Virus record (IMG/VR): IMGVR_UViG_3300005096_000046
Coordinates: 1 to 44,247 of that record
DNA: 44,247 bases
Reading direction: 5' to 3' (one strand)
DNA from: a virus
A program made the position numbers and the translations under genes. Each line of letters opens with the position of its first letter. The first letter of the stretch is position 1. Under the pieces are notes generated by a model. It was not told the DNA's origin. It made no database searches and saw only the letters and a list, made by a program, of their open reading frames with translations. Shown here in pieces: positions 15,096 through 25,368 of the stretch.

Positions 15096-15788
15096 ATGAA
15101 AGATCCCAAGAGCCTTCCCAAAGTGCCGTCGGACTTCATGAAGGAGTTCACCCGGCGGCCCCTCGACGCCGACCCGCCCCTCGCCTGGGACTTCTTCGCC
15201 TACCAGGCCGGGGTGTCTCAGTACGATACCGAGCAGGCCATGCGGGAGTGGCAGGCCAAGGAGGACCTCCTCAAGGAGTTCATGGGCGACCACCACCGGG
15301 AGATCCTCCTCCGGGCCCTGGCCCTCACCAGCGGCCTCTCCGAAAGCTACGTCCGGGCCATCCAGGAGAGAACCGCCCGGCCCAGCGTCCTCGAGGCCTT
15401 CTACCTGGAGGCCGCCGCCCGCATCCTCGGGATGGTCACCCTGGACGCCATGCAGTTCTACTGCAACGCCTTCTCTCCTCACCCCTTCTTCACCCCCTTC
15501 GGAAAAAACATCTTCGCCGTCAACATCGTGCGGCGATATGCCGGGAAGCGGATCAAACAGCATTTCAAGCTTCTCATGACCCGCATTCCTTACCGGGCCG
15601 CCAAGGACAAGATCGAGGACATCGCCATCAAGTGGATGGTCAAGGTCCGGAATGTCCTGAAGAAAAACCCGCTCGACAACTACCGCACCATCGAGGAGGT
15701 GATGGAGGACGAGAAGAGAAGCAAGGACAGCTTCCTCTCCGCATTGAAAACCCACGACGAGGAGGACGAGAACTATGTCACCGACTAA
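15096..15788 (+). CDS. Hypothetical protein preceding Prim-Pol (230 aa)
   Basis: ATG 15096 has AGGGGG 5 bases upstream. The protein is helical, with a possible HTH-like N-terminal half (DFFAYQAGVSQYDTEQAMREWQ...LALTSGLSESYVRAIQERTARPSVLEAFYLEAA). A basic C-terminal part and an acidic tail follow. Its 3' end overlaps the primase start by 14 bases, indicating coupled expression. The genomic slot would suit a replication initiator or a helicase-loading partner of Prim-Pol, or an origin-binding protein for the iterons downstream; this is inference, as I recognise no family. Confidence 0.75.
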   Translation: MKDPKSLPKVPSDFMKEFTRRPLDADPPLAWDFFAYQAGVSQYDTEQAMREWQAKEDLLKEFMGDHHREILLRALALTSGLSESYVRAIQERTARPSVLEAFYLEAAARILGMVTLDAMQFYCNAFSPHPFFTPFGKNIFAVNIVRRYAGKRIKQHFKLLMTRIPYRAAKDKIEDIAIKWMVKVRNVLKKNPLDNYRTIEEVMEDEKRSKDSFLSALKTHDEEDENYVTD

Positions 15789-18507
15789 GGTCCAAGATCA
15801 AGGCCAGCTCGAGAAGATTCTCTACTTGAAGAGGAAATATCACTTCAACGTCTTTCCCCTCTACCCCGGAAAGAAGTCCCCGGCCTTCGCCGGGTGGCAA
15901 CGGTGGGCGGTCGAAGCGGACATCCACGCCATCGAACAATACGCCATCGACCACCCGAACACCAACTGGGGTATTTACACCCAGGACATGGTCGTCATCG
16001 ACCTAGACGTCAAGAGCGGCCCCAACGGCGTGAAGGAGTTCCAGGCCCTCTGCGCCCAGCACAAGGAGACCCCGCCCACCCTCGTCGTAAGGACGCCATC
16101 CGGGGGGTTCCACCTCTACTTCTCGGGTGCGGACGTCCCCGGCTCGGCGAGCACCCTGGGTCCGGGCATCGATGTCCGCTCCCGGGGGAACCTGGTCGTC
16201 GCCCCGGGGTCCGTATTCGGCGACAAGGTCTACGAACTCGTCCAGGACCTCCCCCCTGCGAAGATCCCGGACTGGCTTCTCAACCTCATCAAGTCCAGCC
16301 GGTCAGCCCGCCCGCTCGCCGAGACCCTCGTCGGTCCCATCTATTCCGGCCAGCGAAACGTCTCCCTCTTCCAGGCGGCGGCCTACTTCCGGAAAAAGGG
16401 AATCAGCAAAAAGGCCGCCTCGGTCGCAATCCACATCGAAAACGAGGCCCGATGCATCCCACCGCTTTCGAGGTATGAGGTCGACAAGCTGATCGAGTCG
16501 GCCTATCGATACGATCCGAAGGACGGAGAGGCCATCGCCGCCCTGGCAGAAGAGATCGTCGATTCCAAGAAGACCACCCTCCTGCCAGCCTCCGAACTCC
16601 TCTCCTCCCCGGCCAAGGCCAGGGAGTGGCTGATCAAGGACCTGGTCCTCCGGCGCATCATGACCGTCCTGGTCAGCCCGGGAGGGTCCGGGAAGTCCAG
16701 CTTCTCCCTCCTCGCCGCCCTGGCCCTCGTCACAGGGCGGCCCCTCCTGGGGCGGGACAGGTTCCAGGTCCCCACCCCTCTCCCGGTGTGGCTCTACTCG
16801 ACCGAGGACCCTCTGGACGAACTCCACCGCCGCCTCGAGGCCTACTGCAACAAGTTCGATATACCGCCGAGCGAACTCAAGCACCTTTATCTCACCTCCG
16901 GCGTCAAGCAACCTCTCACCCTCGTCCAGGCCACCCGGGAAGGATTCATGGTCAACACCGAGGCCGTGGAGGTGCTGATCCAGAATATCCGAAAAAACAA
17001 TATCAGTCTTCTCATCATCGACCCCTTCATCCGGGCCCACCAGGTAGACGAGAATTCCAACACCGGCATCGACCAGGTCATGAAGGTCCTGATCGAGATC
17101 ATGGAGCAGACCAATGTCGGTATCTTCCTCATCCACCACACGAAGAAAACGGCCATGAACTACACCCCCGGCGACCCGGACAACGCCAGGGGGGCCTCCG
17201 CCCTCATCGACGCCGCCAGGATGGCCTTCACCCTCGGCCCAATGCGGGAAGACGACCAGGCCGCCACCGGAGTCGACGCCCAGACCCGCCGCCTCTACCG
17301 CCGCCTGGACTACGCCAAGAACAACCTCCTTCCCCCGGCGGACCGGGCGATCTGGTTCCGGTGGGAATCGATCAACCTGGCCTGCGGCGAATCCATCGGG
17401 GTCCTGGCCCGCCGGGAAAATACAGTCGACCAGCAACAGCTTGACCAGGTCCTCGATGTCCAAAGCGATCCTCAACCCCTGAACTCGGATATCTTCAGCT
17501 CAGACCGTGAGAAGGGGATCTTCTTCCTCACGAAACGGCTTATCCGCTCCATCCCGTTGAATGGGAGCATCATGTTACGGGATTTCGTGGAGGAGAATAT
17601 GGATGAGGAGTGGAAAGACGCCATCTGCCAATCGGACGATGTCAGACGCCACCTACGCCTCATCAAGAACCTCTTCAAGAACTTCCTCGGAGCCCTGCCC
17701 CATCTCAGTTCCCTCCCCTTCGCCGTCCTCTACGAGGAAAAGAACGCTCAGACCGGGCGGGTCTTCACCCTCAAGCAGATGACACGGGAAGGCCGACGGG
17801 GGCGTCCAAGCCTCGGGATCGAAGACGTCACAGAACAAGTCCGGAAGACGTTTGAGTCGGAAGAAACCTTCTTCGAGGAAGGATGCCCGTTCATCGCCCT
17901 CGACACCATCGCCCTGGCGAAACACGAGGAATTCAACGTGGTCCAGCCGGGGCTCTACCAGGCCCACCCCCTCCTGATCTGGTTCCTGGCCCGAACCCTC
18001 GGGATCACCCTCCCCACCCCGGCCACGGAGCGGAAGATCCAGCACCTCGAAGGGGCCCTCGAGGCCGCCGCCCCGCCCCTCGCCCAGGAGGGCGTCCCCG
18101 CCCCGGCCCTCGAGGCCGCCCAGGAGGAAGGGTCCGGGTGCGCCCTGGAGGCCCCCCAGGACGCCGGGACACATGGACGGATCCCATCCGTCCCCGATCC
18201 GTCCCGTCCCGTCCCGCACCGGCCCGAGGACCTGGCCGCCCCCTTCGAGAACCTCCTCCAGGCCGACTCCCAGGAGGCCCCTCAGAGCCCCCAGGAGCTG
18301 TTCGAAGACCCAGGGGAGGTGGAGGTCCAGGACCCCCAGGCGGACGCCCTGGAGGACGCCCAGGGCCCCTCTGAGGACCCCATCCCGGAAGCCCCCGAGG
18401 AGGACCCGCACAACTACGTGGACCTGGATCAGATTGAGATGCCGGACGAGGTCGACGAGACCTTCAACGACGCCCTGGGACGGGGTCCGGGAGGTGGCTC
18501 AGAATGA
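15775..18507 (+). CDS. Bifunctional primase/polymerase (Prim-Pol) fused to RepA-like helicase
   Basis: The N-terminal 200 residues are an archaeo-eukaryotic-type primase-polymerase: MVVIDLDVK (metal ligands D76 and D78), GGFHLYF (H113) and GIDVRSRGNLVVAPGSV. A small helical linker follows. Then comes a RecA-fold RepA/DnaB-like ATPase with Walker A SPGGSGKSS (K307), Walker B LLIIDPFIR (D416) and FLIHHTKK. The last 150 residues or so (from about 755) are a Pro/Glu/Ala/Asp-rich disordered tail, ending near DLDQIEMPDEVDETFNDAL, which could be a short interaction peptide. The protein should unwind and prime the phage origin. The non-coding iteron region begins directly after its stop, consistent with an initiator gene next to its origin. 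Length 910 aa. Confidence 0.93.
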   Translation: MSPTKVQDQGQLEKILYLKRKYHFNVFPLYPGKKSPAFAGWQRWAVEADIHAIEQYAIDHPNTNWGIYTQDMVVIDLDVKSGPNGVKEFQALCAQHKETPPTLVVRTPSGGFHLYFSGADVPGSASTLGPGIDVRSRGNLVVAPGSVFGDKVYELVQDLPPAKIPDWLLNLIKSSRSARPLAETLVGPIYSGQRNVSLFQAAAYFRKKGISKKAASVAIHIENEARCIPPLSRYEVDKLIESAYRYDPKDGEAIAALAEEIVDSKKTTLLPASELLSSPAKAREWLIKDLVLRRIMTVLVSPGGSGKSSFSLLAALALVTGRPLLGRDRFQVPTPLPVWLYSTEDPLDELHRRLEAYCNKFDIPPSELKHLYLTSGVKQPLTLVQATREGFMVNTEAVEVLIQNIRKNNISLLIIDPFIRAHQVDENSNTGIDQVMKVLIEIMEQTNVGIFLIHHTKKTAMNYTPGDPDNARGASALIDAARMAFTLGPMREDDQAATGVDAQTRRLYRRLDYAKNNLLPPADRAIWFRWESINLACGESIGVLARRENTVDQQQLDQVLDVQSDPQPLNSDIFSSDREKGIFFLTKRLIRSIPLNGSIMLRDFVEENMDEEWKDAICQSDDVRRHLRLIKNLFKNFLGALPHLSSLPFAVLYEEKNAQTGRVFTLKQMTREGRRGRPSLGIEDVTEQVRKTFESEETFFEEGCPFIALDTIALAKHEEFNVVQPGLYQAHPLLIWFLARTLGITLPTPATERKIQHLEGALEAAAPPLAQEGVPAPALEAAQEEGSGCALEAPQDAGTHGRIPSVPDPSRPVPHRPEDLAAPFENLLQADSQEAPQSPQELFEDPGEVEVQDPQADALEDAQGPSEDPIPEAPEEDPHNYVDLDQIEMPDEVDETFNDALGRGPGGGSE

Positions 18508-18511
18508 AGCA

Positions 18512-18879
18512 GGTTTTTGACCGATCTGGAATTATGACTTTCCGTCAAAAATCGAGGGGATTTTTGACGCTGATTTTTGACTCGCCCCTTTCTGCGAAGG
18601 GCGGATCGAGCTAAGGTCCTGGAATGCAAGGGTTTGTGATTTTTGACCGCCGAGAAAAACGAGCATATAAAACCTAAGTGTATGAATTATGACGGAAGAA
18701 AAATGTCAAAAATCATAAACCCCTGCGCCTCAAGGACTTCTGATTTTTGGTATTTTTGACAAAACGACGGAGCTGAGCCTGGTGCCCCTCCCCCCTCCGC
18801 CCCCTAAAGGGGGCTAGGGAGGGGCAAGGGAGGTTAGGCACCAGGGAAATGCTTTGGAGCGTATGAAAAGTCAAAAATC
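18512..18879. repeat. Iteron array, 10-bp unit GATTTTTGAC: candidate replication origin
   Basis: The only large non-coding stretch of the genome (18508-18957) carries repeated copies of GATTTTTGAC. Exact copies on the plus strand start at 18559, 18572 and 18638. Exact copies on the minus strand (GTCAAAAATC) are at 18544, 18705 and 18870. One- or two-base variants are at 18512 (GGTTTTTGAC), 18742 (GATTTTTGGT) and 18751 (TATTTTTGAC), and the related GAATTATGAC occurs identically at 18529 and 18684. Five copies fall in the first 70 bases. An AT-rich stretch at 18661-18690 could melt. Position beside Prim-Pol/helicase suggests an origin; an operator array is the alternative. Confidence 0.75.
18781..18842. 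repeat. Long imperfect inverted repeat (cruciform/hairpin) inside iteron region
   Basis: Three nested arms pair around one centre: GGTGCC/GGCACC (18781-18786 with 18837-18842), GCCCCTCCC/GGGAGGGGC (18784-18792 with 18817-18825) and the perfect core GCCCCC-TAAA-GGGGGC (18799-18814). The first two share bases, so they are alternative or partial pairings. There is no T tract for termination of the Prim-Pol message. Within an iteron region it could be a primase or single-strand initiation hairpin, or simply a structural barrier. Confidence 0.65.
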
Positions 18880-18957
18880 AAACCCGGCCCCTGGAGGCCC
18901 TTGGGAGGGTGCGAAAGGTGCCGACAACCGGGCCCCTGGCGGGCCGAGGAGGATGCG

Positions 18958-19683
18958 ATGGCGAAGCGAACGAGAGAACGCCTGGACGCCCCGGTGGGCG
19001 AGCGGGCCTACGACTTGTGCATGACCCGGGCGTTCCACGGGGAGTGGCCTGGGACCTGGAACTTCCAGCCGGAGAAGTGGCCCGAGCTGTGGAGGGGCCT
19101 GGTGCTCGCCCTGGACCCCGGCCCGGAGGTGACCGGCTGGGTGATCCTGAACGTCGGGACGGCCCAGGTGCTCTACGCCGGGGAGGACGCCAACCCGGCG
19201 GTTGGAGCCCACCTGCTCTGGGCGGCGGACCAATACACCGGGCGGACAGGCGAGGACCCGGAGCTGGTCCCCCTCGTCATCGAGGGCCTGAGCTGTTTCG
19301 GGGCCCGGGTGGGGCAATCGGTCTTCGAGACAGCTCGGTGGATCGGCTTGTTCGAGGAGGCCTATCACGGCTTCGGCGGACAGGTGGCAGGGCGGATCTT
19401 TCGCCCGGAGGTCAAGCTCGCCCTGACGGGGGCGACCAGGGCGAAGGACGCCGACGTGCGCCGGGCCCTGCTCTCGATCCAGTGGCCGGGGCCCAGGGGC
19501 GGCGGGGCCGAGCCTCTAGTCGGGACGAAGAAAAAACCCGGTCCCCTGTATAAAGTGCGAGGACATGCGTGGTCGGCCTTGGCCGTCGCAGTGGCCTGGG
19601 CGGTCCACGGCTATTCGGTCGTCGATCTGGACGGCGGGTTCTACGGCGAGATGTTCAGAGGAGGAAAAGATGCGAGTAAGTGA
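18958..19683 (+). CDS. RuvC-like Holliday-junction/branched-DNA endonuclease
   Basis: The protein (241 aa) shows the RNase H-fold pattern of phage RuvC-like resolvases: LALDPGPEVTGWV (D53), LVIEGLSCFGARVGQSVFETARWIGLF (E109), TRAKDADVRRAL (D164/D166) and GPLYKVRGHAWSALAVAVAW (H203 near the position of the usual C-terminal acidic pair). It would resolve branched replicative DNA before packaging. I chose ATG 18958 because GAGGAGG lies just upstream; an in-frame ATG at 18901 lacks a Shine-Dalgarno. It overlaps the next gene, its paralogue, by 14 bases. Confidence 0.88.
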   Translation: MAKRTRERLDAPVGERAYDLCMTRAFHGEWPGTWNFQPEKWPELWRGLVLALDPGPEVTGWVILNVGTAQVLYAGEDANPAVGAHLLWAADQYTGRTGEDPELVPLVIEGLSCFGARVGQSVFETARWIGLFEEAYHGFGGQVAGRIFRPEVKLALTGATRAKDADVRRALLSIQWPGPRGGGAEPLVGTKKKPGPLYKVRGHAWSALAVAVAWAVHGYSVVDLDGGFYGEMFRGGKDASK

Positions 19684-20362
19684 TGATCGACTCATTGGTC
19701 TCAAGGCGTATAACACCCGTATGCATTCTGCGATCAATGGGGAGTGGCCTGGGACCAAGGTTTGCGAGCCCTATGAGTGGGAGGAGGAGTGGCTCGGAAA
19801 GGTGTTGACGATCAGCCCTGGGGCGCATTCGAGCGGTTGGGCCTTCGTCGATATCCCTGAGGCGAAGGTGATCACGGGCGGAGTGATGGCGAACCCTGAT
19901 CTCGTCTCCCAGGTGATCTTTGCGGCGCAAGCCTGCGTGGAAGGCTGGCCTGGAGAGAAGGCGAAGAAGGACATGGTCCCGCTTTTGTTTGTGGACCCAT
20001 ATACTTTGGGCGATGAATCGTGGTGGGTCTCACAAGCCAGCAGATGGTGTGGTATCTTTGAGGCTGAGTATCGTCGATCCGGCGGGACGGTTGCGGGTGG
20101 CATCGGGATGAGTCTTGTCATGCGGTTACTGTTCGGCAAAAACCGGGTTGAGAGATGGGTTCTTCGGAGGGGAGTACTATCCCTTCCGTGGAATGGGAAG
20201 GTCGGGGCTGGGTCGGCGGCATTGACTGGAGGGGAGAAGAGTCCGGGCCCGTTATATCCCGTCGTACCCCCTGTTGTCATCGAGGCATTGGCGGCGGTAT
20301 TGGGTTGGGTGTTGAACGGTTACGACTGCATCCATATAGACAAAACGTTTTACAAGAGTTGA
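19670..20362 (+). CDS. Catalytically degenerate RuvC-like paralogue
   Basis: This 230-residue protein aligns along its length with the preceding RuvC-like nuclease. It shares an N-terminal GEWPGT...W motif, the spacing from SPG (for DPG) to the next core strand, an ANP element, GPLYPV and a C-terminal DGGF/DKTF-like end. The catalytic positions are changed: first Asp is Ser (TISPG, S49), Glu is Asp (LLFVDP, D109), AKDADVR is replaced by NRVERWV, and HAWSA by VVIEA. An 18-base identical stretch (19039-19056 and 19739-19756, exactly 700 bp apart) supports tandem duplication. The best guess is a non-catalytic partner that forms a heterodimer or regulates the nuclease. GAGGA precedes ATG 19670. 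Confidence 0.8.
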   Translation: MRVSDDRLIGLKAYNTRMHSAINGEWPGTKVCEPYEWEEEWLGKVLTISPGAHSSGWAFVDIPEAKVITGGVMANPDLVSQVIFAAQACVEGWPGEKAKKDMVPLLFVDPYTLGDESWWVSQASRWCGIFEAEYRRSGGTVAGGIGMSLVMRLLFGKNRVERWVLRRGVLSLPWNGKVGAGSAALTGGEKSPGPLYPVVPPVVIEALAAVLGWVLNGYDCIHIDKTFYKS

Positions 20363-20374
20363 GAGGAGACCGTC

Positions 20375-20926
20375 GTGGACAAGGATTGGATGTATATTCC
20401 GACAGCCACTTTCGAGCAGTTGAAGCAGATCCTCGAGCTGGTCGAGGGGATGTGCGGGATCACGAAGCGGGAGAAGGCCCGACTCCCGATCTACGAGCGG
20501 GTGCCGCTTGCTCTCCAGCGGTTCGAGGAGGTCTCAGCGAAGGTCAAGGCCCTCCTCGGGGTTGGGCTTACGGACCACAAGAAATTCATCCACAAGCTTC
20601 GGGTCTGGACCCAGCTTTTCCAGACCACGAAAAGTGCGGGGCTCTGGGAGTTGGTCGACGATCTCATCGTGCGGATGATCGAGGACGCCCGGTCGGTCAC
20701 ATCGGTCGCCCGGACCCTGGGGGTCTCCAGGGCGACGGTCTACCGGGCCCTCGAGCGGGCGAAGGTCAGGGGGTGGGTGTTACCGAAACTTGACCAAACC
20801 CAGAGGCGGGTCCAGGTGCGGAAGTCGGCGGATCCGGGGAAGTGGACGGCTGGAGGCCGGAAGAAGCCCAGCGGGGGGCCCTGGGCCGCCAGGCGTAAGC
20901 GTGGTGCGAAGAAAAGGGGTTCCTGA
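20375..20926 (+). CDS. Helix-turn-helix DNA-binding protein (183 aa)
   Basis: GTG 20375 has GAGAGGAG 6 bases upstream. Residues about 108-135 form a clear resolvase/HTH_23-type helix-turn-helix (SVTSVARTLGVSRATVYRAL). The protein ends in a strongly basic tail (Lys/Arg/Gly). The N-terminal half is helical and unassigned. It is the last gene before a strong terminator, so it closes the replication operon. It may be the regulator that switches to late genes or binds the iterons; a terminase small subunit role is less likely because a better candidate follows at 21470. Confidence 0.8.
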   Translation: MDKDWMYIPTATFEQLKQILELVEGMCGITKREKARLPIYERVPLALQRFEEVSAKVKALLGVGLTDHKKFIHKLRVWTQLFQTTKSAGLWELVDDLIVRMIEDARSVTSVARTLGVSRATVYRALERAKVRGWVLPKLDQTQRRVQVRKSADPGKWTAGGRKKPSGGPWAARRKRGAKKRGS

Positions 20927-21469: not shown

Positions 21470-22000
21470 ATGGGAAACGCTTACCACGAGGGGACGAACA
21501 TACCGATCACCGAATACCTGCATCCTGGGTTTCGGGAGATTGCCGTCGCCGAAAAGTGGGGACCGGAGGAACTGGAGCGGGCTAAGTTCGCTCTCTTCCT
21601 GCGCTATTGGTGCGGGGAACCGAAGCTGACGGCGTTGGCCATGGAGGTCGACGGGTGGGACGGAGCCCTCAAGCCCTACGAGCTGAAGAAGTTCGCTCGG
21701 AGCAAGGAGGCCCAGGCCGCCCTGGTCCTGGAGGCGAAGAAGGAGGGCGGCGAATACGTCCCGGGCGTCGCCCTCGTGCGGGAGTTGAAGGTCTGGTGGA
21801 CCCAGGTCATGCGGAACATCACCTTCGACGTCAAGGACCGCCTGGCCGCCTCCACGAACCTCGCCAGGGCCCTGGGCGTCTTCGTGGAGAGGAAGGAGGT
21901 CAAGCACTCGTTCGGCGAGAAGCTCCTTGAGCTGACGAAAGAGCTGGACGACGAGGAGGACCTTGACAGCGAGGACCCGGGAGAGGAGGATGAGGGCTGA
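21470..22000 (+). CDS. terS: Terminase small subunit (putative)
   Basis: The protein (176 aa) lies directly upstream of the large terminase. Residues about 40-80 (LRYWCGEPKLTALAMEVDGWD...KKFARSKEAQAAL) have the size and pattern of the N-terminal DNA-binding helices of phage TerS proteins. A helical oligomerisation region and a very acidic C-terminus (DDEEDLDSEDPGEEDEG) follow. It would recognise phage DNA and start packaging. The assignment rests on gene position and pattern rather than a strong motif. Confidence 0.75.
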   Translation: MGNAYHEGTNIPITEYLHPGFREIAVAEKWGPEELERAKFALFLRYWCGEPKLTALAMEVDGWDGALKPYELKKFARSKEAQAALVLEAKKEGGEYVPGVALVRELKVWWTQVMRNITFDVKDRLAASTNLARALGVFVERKEVKHSFGEKLLELTKELDDEEDLDSEDPGEEDEG

Positions 22001-22001
22001 C

Positions 22002-23453
22002 GTGCAGGATCCCGCCGGAAGCATTCTGACTCCTCCGAACAGCGAGAAGCCAACGCCAGGGAAACTCAAAAAGGTTCTCGCCCGCTTCCGGCGGGATCCT
22101 GTCTTTTTTGTCACCTACGCCTTCAACGTCGAGCCCACCCACCAACAGGCGCAGATCCTTCGAGCCATCGCAAAGCCCGGGGCGAAGGTGTCGGTCTCCT
22201 CGGGCCACGGGATCGGGAAGACGGCGGCTCTGGCCTGGGCAATCGACTGGTTCCTGCTCTTCTTTCCCCACTGCCGTATACCGTGCACGGCCCCGACTTC
22301 GAGCCAGCTTCATTCGGTTCTCTGGGCGGAGTTGAAGCGATGGCATTCCGTCATGGAGGAGCCCTGGAAGTCGGAACTCAAGGTCATGAAGGACAAGGTC
22401 ATCGTCGTGAGCGATCCGGACCGGTTCGCTGTGGCGAGGACGGCCCGGAAGGAGGACGCAGAGGCCCTTCAGGGGTTCCATGCGAAGAACCTCCTCTTCA
22501 TCATCGACGAGGCCTCGGGTGTCCACGACAAGATCTTCGAGTCCGCCAGGGGGTCTCTCTCGACCAAGCGGGCCCGGGTCCTCATGACCTCCAACCCGAC
22601 CAGGCTACAGGGGTTCTTCTGGAAGTCTCATCATCGGAACCGCAATCACTGGACCAGGTTCCAGTTCTCTTCGGAGGACAGCCCGCTCGTCGACAAGGCC
22701 TATGTCGAGGAGATCCGGGAGGAGTACGGGGACGACTCCGACTATTTCCGGGTGCGTGTCGCCGGGAAGTTCCCCAGGGCGGCCATCTCCCAGCTCATCT
22801 CCCTGGAGCTGGCGGAGGCGGCGGCCAGGCGGAAGCTCGGGAAGTCCGACTACTACTTCGCCCCGGTGGTCCTCGGCGTGGATGTGGCCTGGGAGGGCGA
22901 CGACAGGTCGGTGGTGGTCCTTCGCCAAGGCCTCCATTCCCGGGTCCTCGGGCACTGGCGGAACTTGTCCACGATGGCCCTGGGGGACCTGGTGGCCCAG
23001 TTCGAAGACCAGTATCAGGCGGACGCCGTGTTCGTGGACGCCGGGTGGGGAGCGGGCACCATCGACCGCCTGCGGTCCCTGAACCGGAACCCGATTCCGG
23101 TCTTCTTCGGGGAATCGGCGATGGAGCAGAAGCGGTTCGCCAACAAGCGGGCGGAGATGTGGGTGCGGCTTCTCGAGTGGCTCCAGCACGGCGGGCAGAT
23201 CCCGGACATGCCGGAGCTGATCGAGGACCTGACCGGACCGATGAAGATGTTCTCCCCGAGCGGAAAGATTCAGCTCGAGCGTAAAGAAGACATGAAGAAG
23301 CGGGGGCTCGCCTCCCCGGACTTCGGTGACGCCCTGGCCCTCACCTTCGCTTCGCCGGTGTCCAGGAAGAAGCCCATCGAGACGAGGTTGAGCCTGGACT
23401 ACATCCAGGATCATGCGGAATACGAATACGACGTTCTTTCCTTGGAGGACTGA
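22002..23453 (+). CDS. terL: Terminase large subunit
   Basis: This is the ATPase and nuclease that packages DNA. Walker A is SSGHGIGKTAALAW (K73), Walker B is LLFIIDEASG (D169/E170), and a coupling motif MTSNPTR follows. The C-terminal RNase H-like nuclease has VLGVDVAWEGDDR (D294), AVFVDAGWG and DFGDALALTF. I prefer GTG 22002 (483 aa), which has GAGGG 5 bases before it and avoids overlap with TerS; ATG 21990 or TTG 21963 in the same frame are alternatives. Circular permutation of the contig would fit a headful mechanism, but that is inference. Confidence 0.95.
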   Translation: MQDPAGSILTPPNSEKPTPGKLKKVLARFRRDPVFFVTYAFNVEPTHQQAQILRAIAKPGAKVSVSSGHGIGKTAALAWAIDWFLLFFPHCRIPCTAPTSSQLHSVLWAELKRWHSVMEEPWKSELKVMKDKVIVVSDPDRFAVARTARKEDAEALQGFHAKNLLFIIDEASGVHDKIFESARGSLSTKRARVLMTSNPTRLQGFFWKSHHRNRNHWTRFQFSSEDSPLVDKAYVEEIREEYGDDSDYFRVRVAGKFPRAAISQLISLELAEAAARRKLGKSDYYFAPVVLGVDVAWEGDDRSVVVLRQGLHSRVLGHWRNLSTMALGDLVAQFEDQYQADAVFVDAGWGAGTIDRLRSLNRNPIPVFFGESAMEQKRFANKRAEMWVRLLEWLQHGGQIPDMPELIEDLTGPMKMFSPSGKIQLERKEDMKKRGLASPDFGDALALTFASPVSRKKPIETRLSLDYIQDHAEYEYDVLSLED

Positions 23454-23454
23454 C

Positions 23455-23658
23455 ATGTGTTTGAAACCGAAAGCTCCGAAGATCGAGGCCCCGCCGCCCG
23501 CTCCGCCTCCTCCTGTCCAGAAGGAGAAGGCGAGCTACATCGACATGCGAGTGGCGACGGCCCTGGCCCAGAGCATGCGGCGGAAGCGGACCATCGCAAC
23601 GTCGGGGCTCGGGGACCAGAGCCAGGCGGTGTTCAACAAGAAGGCCTTGGGCCAGTAA
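23455..23658 (+). CDS. Small proline-rich protein upstream of portal (67 aa)
   Basis: ATG 23455 has GGAGG 6 bases upstream. The product starts MCLKPKAPKIEAPPPAPPPP, and continues with a short basic region (QSMRRKRTIAT). Small proteins beginning MC with a Pro-rich stretch are common between terminase and portal or near ejection genes in podophages. Function is unknown; a minor virion or assembly factor is plausible. Confidence 0.75.
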   Translation: MCLKPKAPKIEAPPPAPPPPVQKEKASYIDMRVATALAQSMRRKRTIATSGLGDQSQAVFNKKALGQ

Positions 23659-23667
23659 GGGAGACGG

Positions 23668-25368
23668 ATGGTCGAGTTCGACGAAAAGGTGTTGAGCGAT
23701 ATCCGGCGGCGGTTTCGCTCCTTGTACGACGAGAGCGTGACCTGGAGGGCGCATTGGGCGGAACTCCGGGACTACATCGCTCCGAACCGTGGAGCCTTCC
23801 TCGACTCGATCCGGGAGGAAAAGCCGTCGGAGAAGGGGGCCAAGAAGCGGAGCAAGATCATCAACAACGTGGCCGAGAAGGCCCTCCAGATCCTGACGTC
23901 GGGGCTCCACGGGGGGCTGACGTCGCCGTCCCGGCCCTGGTTCCGGTTCGGCCTGGAGGACAAGGACCTCGAGGAGTTCACCCAGGTGCGGCTCTGGCTC
24001 CGGACGGTCAGGGACCTCGTGCTCGACACCATGGCGAGGACGAACTTCTACAGCTCGATCCATATGGTCTACAAGGAGACCGGCGGGTTCGGGACTGGCA
24101 ACATGTTCATCCTCGAGGACCACGTCAACTATTTCCGATGCAAGACGATGACGGTGGGGGAATACTACCTCACCACGACGGAGAACGACGAACCAGATAC
24201 GGTATTCAGGCTTTTGAGCCTGACCGCCTCCCAGCTGGTCGCCAAGTTCGGGGAGGAGAACGTCAGCGAGGAGGTCAAGCGGGCGGCGGAGCGTCAGCCG
24301 GACAAGTGGTTCACCATCGTCCACATGGTGCGCCCCCGGAGCCGATACGATCCTTTCCTCGAGGACAACCAGGCCTACCCGTACGAGTCGGTTTATTTCG
24401 AATACGCCACAGGGGAACAGAACAAGGTCCTTTCGGTCTCGGGGTTCAAGAGCAAGCCGTTCGTCTCGCCGAGGTGGGAGGTGACGGGGTCGGAGATCTT
24501 CGGGCGGGGCCCGGGAATGGTGGCCCTCCCGGACGTCAAGGCTCTTCAGCGGATCGAGTCGGACAAGCTCATGGCCATCGCCAAGATGGCGAACCCTCCA
24601 ATGAAGGCCGGGCCGAACCTCAAGCCCGCCGCAGGAAATGTGAAGCCGGGCGGGGTGACCTTCGTGGACGAGGTGGGCGGGATGGATTCCTACGCCCCGG
24701 TCTACCAGGTCAACCCCAACGTCAACGGCTTGCTTCTCCAGGTGGACAAGACGGAGCGGGCCATACGGGAGGCGTTCTACAACGAACTTTTCCTGGCCAT
24801 CCTCCAGGAGGAGAAGACCATGACCGCCCGGGAAGTGGCGGAGAGGCACGACGAGAAGCTCCTCCAGCTGGGCCCCACCCTGGAGCGGCTGGAGAGGGAA
24901 CTCCTCAGCCCGACTATCGAGCGGGTGCTGGACATCCTGTTCGACGCAGGGATGGTTCCGCCGCCTCCCCCGGAACTCGAGGGGATGGATATCCGGATCG
25001 AATATATCAGCATCCTGGCTCAGGCCCAGAAGCTGGTGTCCCTGGGCGGGATCGAGCGGCTGGTCGGGTTCACAGGCGGCCTGGCCCAGCTCGATCCGTC
25101 GGTCATCGACATCCTCAACCTGGACAAGAGCATCGAGGACTACGCCAGGACCGTGGGTGTGGACCCCAGCCTCATCCGGGACCCCCAGGAGGTGGCGGCG
25201 ATCCGGGCGGAGCGGGCCAGGCAACAGCAGGCGGCCCAGATGGCCATGGCGGCCCAGGCGGCGAAGCCTGCGGCGGAGGCGGCTAAGGACCTGTCGGAGA
25301 CGGAGACAAGTCAGGGGAACGCCCTGGACAACCTGCTCGGGTTCTCGGGCCCGGGCACGAGGGGGTGA
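23668..25368 (+). CDS. Portal / head-to-tail connector protein
   Basis: The 566-residue protein begins with RFRSLYDESVTWRAHWAELRDYIAPNRG and continues ...NNVAEKALQILTSGLHGGLTSPSRPWFRFG. This is the signature of the podophage head-to-tail connector family (PF12236) found in BPP-1- and T7-related phages. Twelve copies would form the portal ring at one capsid vertex, through which TerL pumps DNA. The C-terminal part has Ala/Gln-rich helices (QQQAAQMAMAAQAA) typical of the portal barrel. GGGAG precedes ATG 23668. Confidence 0.95.
   Translation: MVEFDEKVLSDIRRRFRSLYDESVTWRAHWAELRDYIAPNRGAFLDSIREEKPSEKGAKKRSKIINNVAEKALQILTSGLHGGLTSPSRPWFRFGLEDKDLEEFTQVRLWLRTVRDLVLDTMARTNFYSSIHMVYKETGGFGTGNMFILEDHVNYFRCKTMTVGEYYLTTTENDEPDTVFRLLSLTASQLVAKFGEENVSEEVKRAAERQPDKWFTIVHMVRPRSRYDPFLEDNQAYPYESVYFEYATGEQNKVLSVSGFKSKPFVSPRWEVTGSEIFGRGPGMVALPDVKALQRIESDKLMAIAKMANPPMKAGPNLKPAAGNVKPGGVTFVDEVGGMDSYAPVYQVNPNVNGLLLQVDKTERAIREAFYNELFLAILQEEKTMTAREVAERHDEKLLQLGPTLERLERELLSPTIERVLDILFDAGMVPPPPPELEGMDIRIEYISILAQAQKLVSLGGIERLVGFTGGLAQLDPSVIDILNLDKSIEDYARTVGVDPSLIRDPQEVAAIRAERARQQQAAQMAMAAQAAKPAAEAAKDLSETETSQGNALDNLLGFSGPGTRG

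Follow-up and report, generated by a model that had tools for sequence, protein, structure and literature searches.

Why does a virus carry, directly behind a gene for an apparently intact Holliday junction resolvase, a second gene of the same family that has lost the active site, and what might the second product do? The window analysed here is one whole virus record (IMGVR_UViG_3300005096_000046, 44,247 bases), and all features are given on its plus strand. The two open reading frames in question, A (18958-19683, 241 aa) and B (19670-20362, 230 aa), lie where a sequence-only reading of this DNA had placed them and overlap by 14 bases (19670-19683). Both begin at a perfect Shine-Dalgarno sequence plus start codon (AGGAGG-N5-ATG), AGGAGGATGCGATG at 18947-18960 for A and AGGAGGAAAAGATG at 19659-19672, within the end of A, for B; these are two of only three such perfect sites in the window. 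The gene upstream of A encodes a Prim-Pol/AAA primase-helicase (15775-18507; Pfam Prim-Pol, PriCT_1 and AAA_25), for which we found no close relative, a scan with the Prim-Pol protein yielding none. B is followed by genes for a helix-turn-helix (HTH) protein (20375-20926; Pfam HTH matches) with no relative among the viral contigs scanned, a coiled-coil protein, a probable small terminase subunit (TerS, 21470-22000), assigned because it precedes the large subunit and matches the equivalent ORF of one related locus, L110, and the large terminase subunit (TerL, 21963-23453; phrog_2 terminase large subunit).

Two further features of the locus were observed in passing. The non-coding stretch between the primase-helicase gene and A (18512-18879) holds an array of GTCAAAAATC, comprising six exact copies and two copies with one mismatch in both orientations. 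With one more one-mismatch copy outside the array, the window contains nine copies against 1.95 expected, and the array resembles an iteron-type origin or a set of operators. Behind TerL, the longest ORF in 23457-25368 (23457-25286) has a third-position GC of 0.41, for which reason the true gene, likely that of the portal, is probably the frame 23668-25368 that overlaps it.

Judging from its sequence and structure model, A belongs to the RuvC-type Holliday junction resolvases of phages, as a divergent member. Its direct hmmscan match to phrog_1770 (Holliday junction resolvase) is weak (E 0.026), and Pfam and NCBIfam gave no name for either A or B. The best tblastn matches of A include annotated phage Holliday junction resolvases, and in the family alignment, which A joins by tblastn and HMM, 54 of 56 rows match phrog_1770 at E 0.001. 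The best PDB matches of the A model are all RuvC proteins, headed by that of T. thermophilus (E 9.7e-8). The putative active site consists of D53, E109, D164 and H203; these four positions are occupied by D, E, D and H/D in 95 of 95 distinct relatives, with no exception, and A keeps 35 of the 45 family-conserved columns. A is probably a working resolvase. The catalytic residues of RuvC are D7, E66, D138 and D141 in E. coli and D7, E70, H143 and D146 in T. thermophilus (PMC3864405). According to the alignment, the last canonical Asp is in most cases replaced by A, S or P across the phage family of A; the position corresponds to S206 of A (19573-19575), and the family as a whole is without the canonical Asp there. 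The invariant Asp of the RAKD motif, D164 in A (19447-19449), lies in the aC-aD region and may take over from the last canonical Asp, which suggests that the metal site of the phage family is rearranged.

B is homologous to A over its full length, including the N-terminal GEWPGT region (BLASTP, 81/224 identities, 36%, E 5e-40), and by this measure the two are true paralogues, as the sequence-only reading had proposed. The positions equivalent to the active-site residues of A hold S49, V108 (L by the HMM alignment), R162 and P/V in B, which is the only one among the family members compared to have none of the four residues. Since none is kept, B is very probably non-catalytic. The earlier description of a Ser in place of the first catalytic Asp (D53 to S49) and of the loss of the KDAD and HAWSA elements proved accurate, but its "Asp for Glu" is only approximate: B does possess an Asp109, but in the ungapped alignment Val108 stands opposite Glu109 of A and Asp109 falls one residue past the Glu column. 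This Asp might reach the pocket; metal binding with the other three residues gone seems unlikely. Outside the active site, B retains PG, W.G.F, KxPGPxY and the final AL among the 21 of 45 family-conserved columns that it keeps, and the loss at the active site is in no significant excess over that elsewhere (Fisher p 0.11), so that it appears as part of a general divergence. The structure model of B (pLDDT 73, pTM 0.70) has its elements in RuvC order, and every one of its 11 PDB matches below E 0.001 is a RuvC protein (best D. radiodurans RuvC, E 7e-7), although the alignment given to the prediction held the RuvC family and thus biased it toward this fold. The models thus support a RuvC fold for both proteins, and the different fold that had been raised as an objection to B was not seen.

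The frame of B is open over 230 codons, and all gaps in the A/B alignment are in-frame. In a neutral simulation at 0.3 hits per site, fewer than 1.5% of the frames stayed open (about 99% closed). Between A and B, pN is 0.43 and pS 0.68, with pS saturated and the ratio blending constraint on A with constraint on B. Together with the perfect ribosome-binding site, these results argue that B is translated and that selection has acted on it during most of its past; a recent loss of function would still be compatible with them. B thus looks ready for translation, and we infer its expression on these grounds. At the same time, B has a GC content of 0.56 compared to 0.68 for A, its third-position GC (0.65) is the lowest among the well-framed genes compared, and it forms the longest branch of the family tree. 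The low GC and the long branch would fit either relaxed selection or a separate arrival. Relaxation carried to its end would make B a decaying, functionless duplicate, seen before any stop or frameshift arose. We consider this a live but less likely reading: the very long branch, the low third-position GC, the loss of half of the family-conserved columns and the lack of B relatives (see below) would be expected of such a gene, but a sequence that is compatible with the fold, preceded by a perfect ribosome-binding site and open over its whole length with in-frame gaps only, would not, and neutral evolution seldom left such a frame open in the simulations.

The separate arrival bears on the origin of the pair. 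An identical stretch of 18 bases, GGGGAGTGGCCTGGGACC, occurs at 19039-19056 in A and at 19739-19756 in B, exactly 700 bp apart as had been reported, and encodes GEWPGT in both proteins. The sequence-only reading took it as a sign of duplication, a use that did not hold up, because the match follows from the codons for GEWPGT, a conserved motif: when B was shuffled synonymously, 9 of 200 shuffles yielded a match as long as 18 bp. Elsewhere, identical A/B residues share the same codon about as often as expected by chance (36 observed, 33.5 expected). Gene conversion or a recent duplication, as deduced from the 18-bp identity, was therefore rejected. The proposed duplication with loss of catalysis survives with regard to the paralogy and the disappearance of the whole active site. 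Synonymous sites between A and B are saturated. The simplest reading of the sequences is that the pair arose by an old duplication inside one lineage. In the tree, A and B group at 94/72, where long-branch attraction is possible. It is very improbable, in our view, that B is instead a xenologue acquired from another phage with an unrelated new role; its lower GC and the saturation would suit such an origin, but both the GEWPGT extension and a C-terminal GY...D..FY motif are common to A and B and occur in no relative, and the grouping in the tree, with the reservation just made, also speaks against it. The N-terminal extension that carries GEWPGT (18958-19098 in A, 19670-19798 in B) was absent from all relatives seen and is a possible binding or oligomerisation element.

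The sequence-only reading had also proposed a search for the gene pair in related phages, which returned none. Of 117 loci encoding a family member, one of them that of the window, only the window's own contained a second; the search at most loci covered no more than about 6 kb of flanking DNA, so that distant second copies could be missed. The annotated phage records had one family member each (15 of 15), the pair was found neither on the plasmids searched nor on the viral and genome contigs searched with GEWPGT patterns, and scanning genomes with the family alignment turned up single copies only. B on its own with an intact active site was seen in no relative, yet relatives specific to B were not found at all, the six weak matches being ordinary RuvC members. 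B thus appears to be an orphan of one lineage, because no relative has a second copy in the fetched DNA or the GEWPGT extension. In two loci with RuvC near TerL (L110 and L108), there is one RuvC gene each, the order in L110 being RuvC, a coiled-coil-like protein, TerS and TerL. In the eight viral records whose TerL comes closest to that of the window (L092-L099, 49-58% identity, some of them fragments), no RuvC-family member was detected, and the resolvase therefore seems to have been swapped among related phages. Paired or inactive RuvC proteins in phages are not described in the literature as far as searched, and the A/B pair is unusual within the RuvC family as sampled.

RuvC acts as a dimer with two sites that cut sequentially, one cut per subunit (PMC2670506), and the dimer interface of phage RuvC is formed largely by helix alpha-B (PMC3864405). 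In the region of B matching this helix, 7 of 19 residues are kept compared to A, RW.G.FE.Y being common to both; the region is conserved about as well as the whole protein, no better. With regard to DNA contacts, some of the basic residues of the aD-aE loop are missing from B (the net charge falls from +5 to +1), and the aC-aD region of B has become more basic (+3 to +5), with R in place of D164. In bIL67 RuvC, basic residues of the aC-aD region are near DNA in a model and matter for cleavage, and the nuclease-deficient D8N mutant keeps its fold (PMC3864405). These precedents, with the RuvC fold kept in the B model and its basic aC-aD region retained, would allow B to form homodimers that do not mix with A and bind branched DNA uncut, for instance to shield forks or junctions or to bring in the terminase encoded nearby. 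We rate this on a par with the decaying duplicate, as a live but less likely reading, since other basic residues of the loops are gone and 36% identity to A leaves cross-dimerisation possible.

We favour, at a probability of roughly 40%, the reading that B is a co-translated pseudo-enzyme partner of A, over both the homodimer and the decaying duplicate. A would cut junctions and thereby debranch the phage DNA ahead of packaging, a role that fits its location beside the terminase; phage RuvC is thought to clear branched DNA that interferes with packaging (PMC3864405). B, an old non-cutting paralogue with the RuvC fold and the dimer-face helix kept, would be translated from the message of A just downstream and mix with A. 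A mixed dimer of this kind could attach to a junction or fork and either cut one strand only or hold the DNA uncut. The sequence-only reading had suggested a heterodimer that nicks only one strand, which is a fair hypothesis. The full-length homology, the loss in B of all four residues that the 95 relatives and A have, the RuvC-only PDB matches, the open frame, the ribosome-binding site and the kept dimer-helix region speak for such a partnership; the lack of a B-specific relative, the high general divergence, a dimer helix no better kept than the rest and the loss in the basic loop speak against it. A stricter form, in which A pairs with B always or by preference and the RuvC heterodimer, having a single active site, is a natural nickase of junctions or forks, is plausible by analogy with MUS81-EME1, and gene arrangement and sequence fit it, but we rate it as rather doubtful. 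RuvC serves as the textbook case of a symmetric resolvase. If a pseudo-RuvC occurs naturally beside an active paralogue, one could test whether a phage tunes debranching by mixing dead and live subunits; if B is merely decaying, the case is an ordinary one.

Among known systems, the closest kin are the phrog_1770 resolvases of Xanthomonas phage Rb1, Cyanophage Cy-LDV1 and Cellulophaga phage phi19:3. The motifs DPG, E, RAKD, H/D-x-W and GTKKxPGP are common to them and A, and several relatives also have the gene near the terminase. They differ from A by lacking its 47-residue N-terminal extension and from B by having an active site, and the known members are single-copy, in 15 of 15 phage records, whereas the window has two. 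The cellular RuvC proteins (E. coli, T. thermophilus, D. radiodurans) and phage bIL67 RuvC have the fold seen in the A and B models. Their first Asp, Glu and His/Asp at the last helix are also found in A; the D146 of T. thermophilus RuvC is mostly A, S or P in A and its relatives, which have the invariant D164 in aC-aD instead, and none of their active-site residues is found in B. MUS81-EME1/Mms4 consists of an active nuclease and a homologous subunit with mutated active-site residues (PMC4519697). The comparison concerns the way of working only, as this eukaryotic complex has the unrelated ERCC4 fold and is a proven heterodimer, whereas A and B are known here from their genes and single-protein models; if the heterodimer is real, the pair would be a RuvC-fold counterpart of MUS81-EME1 in a phage.
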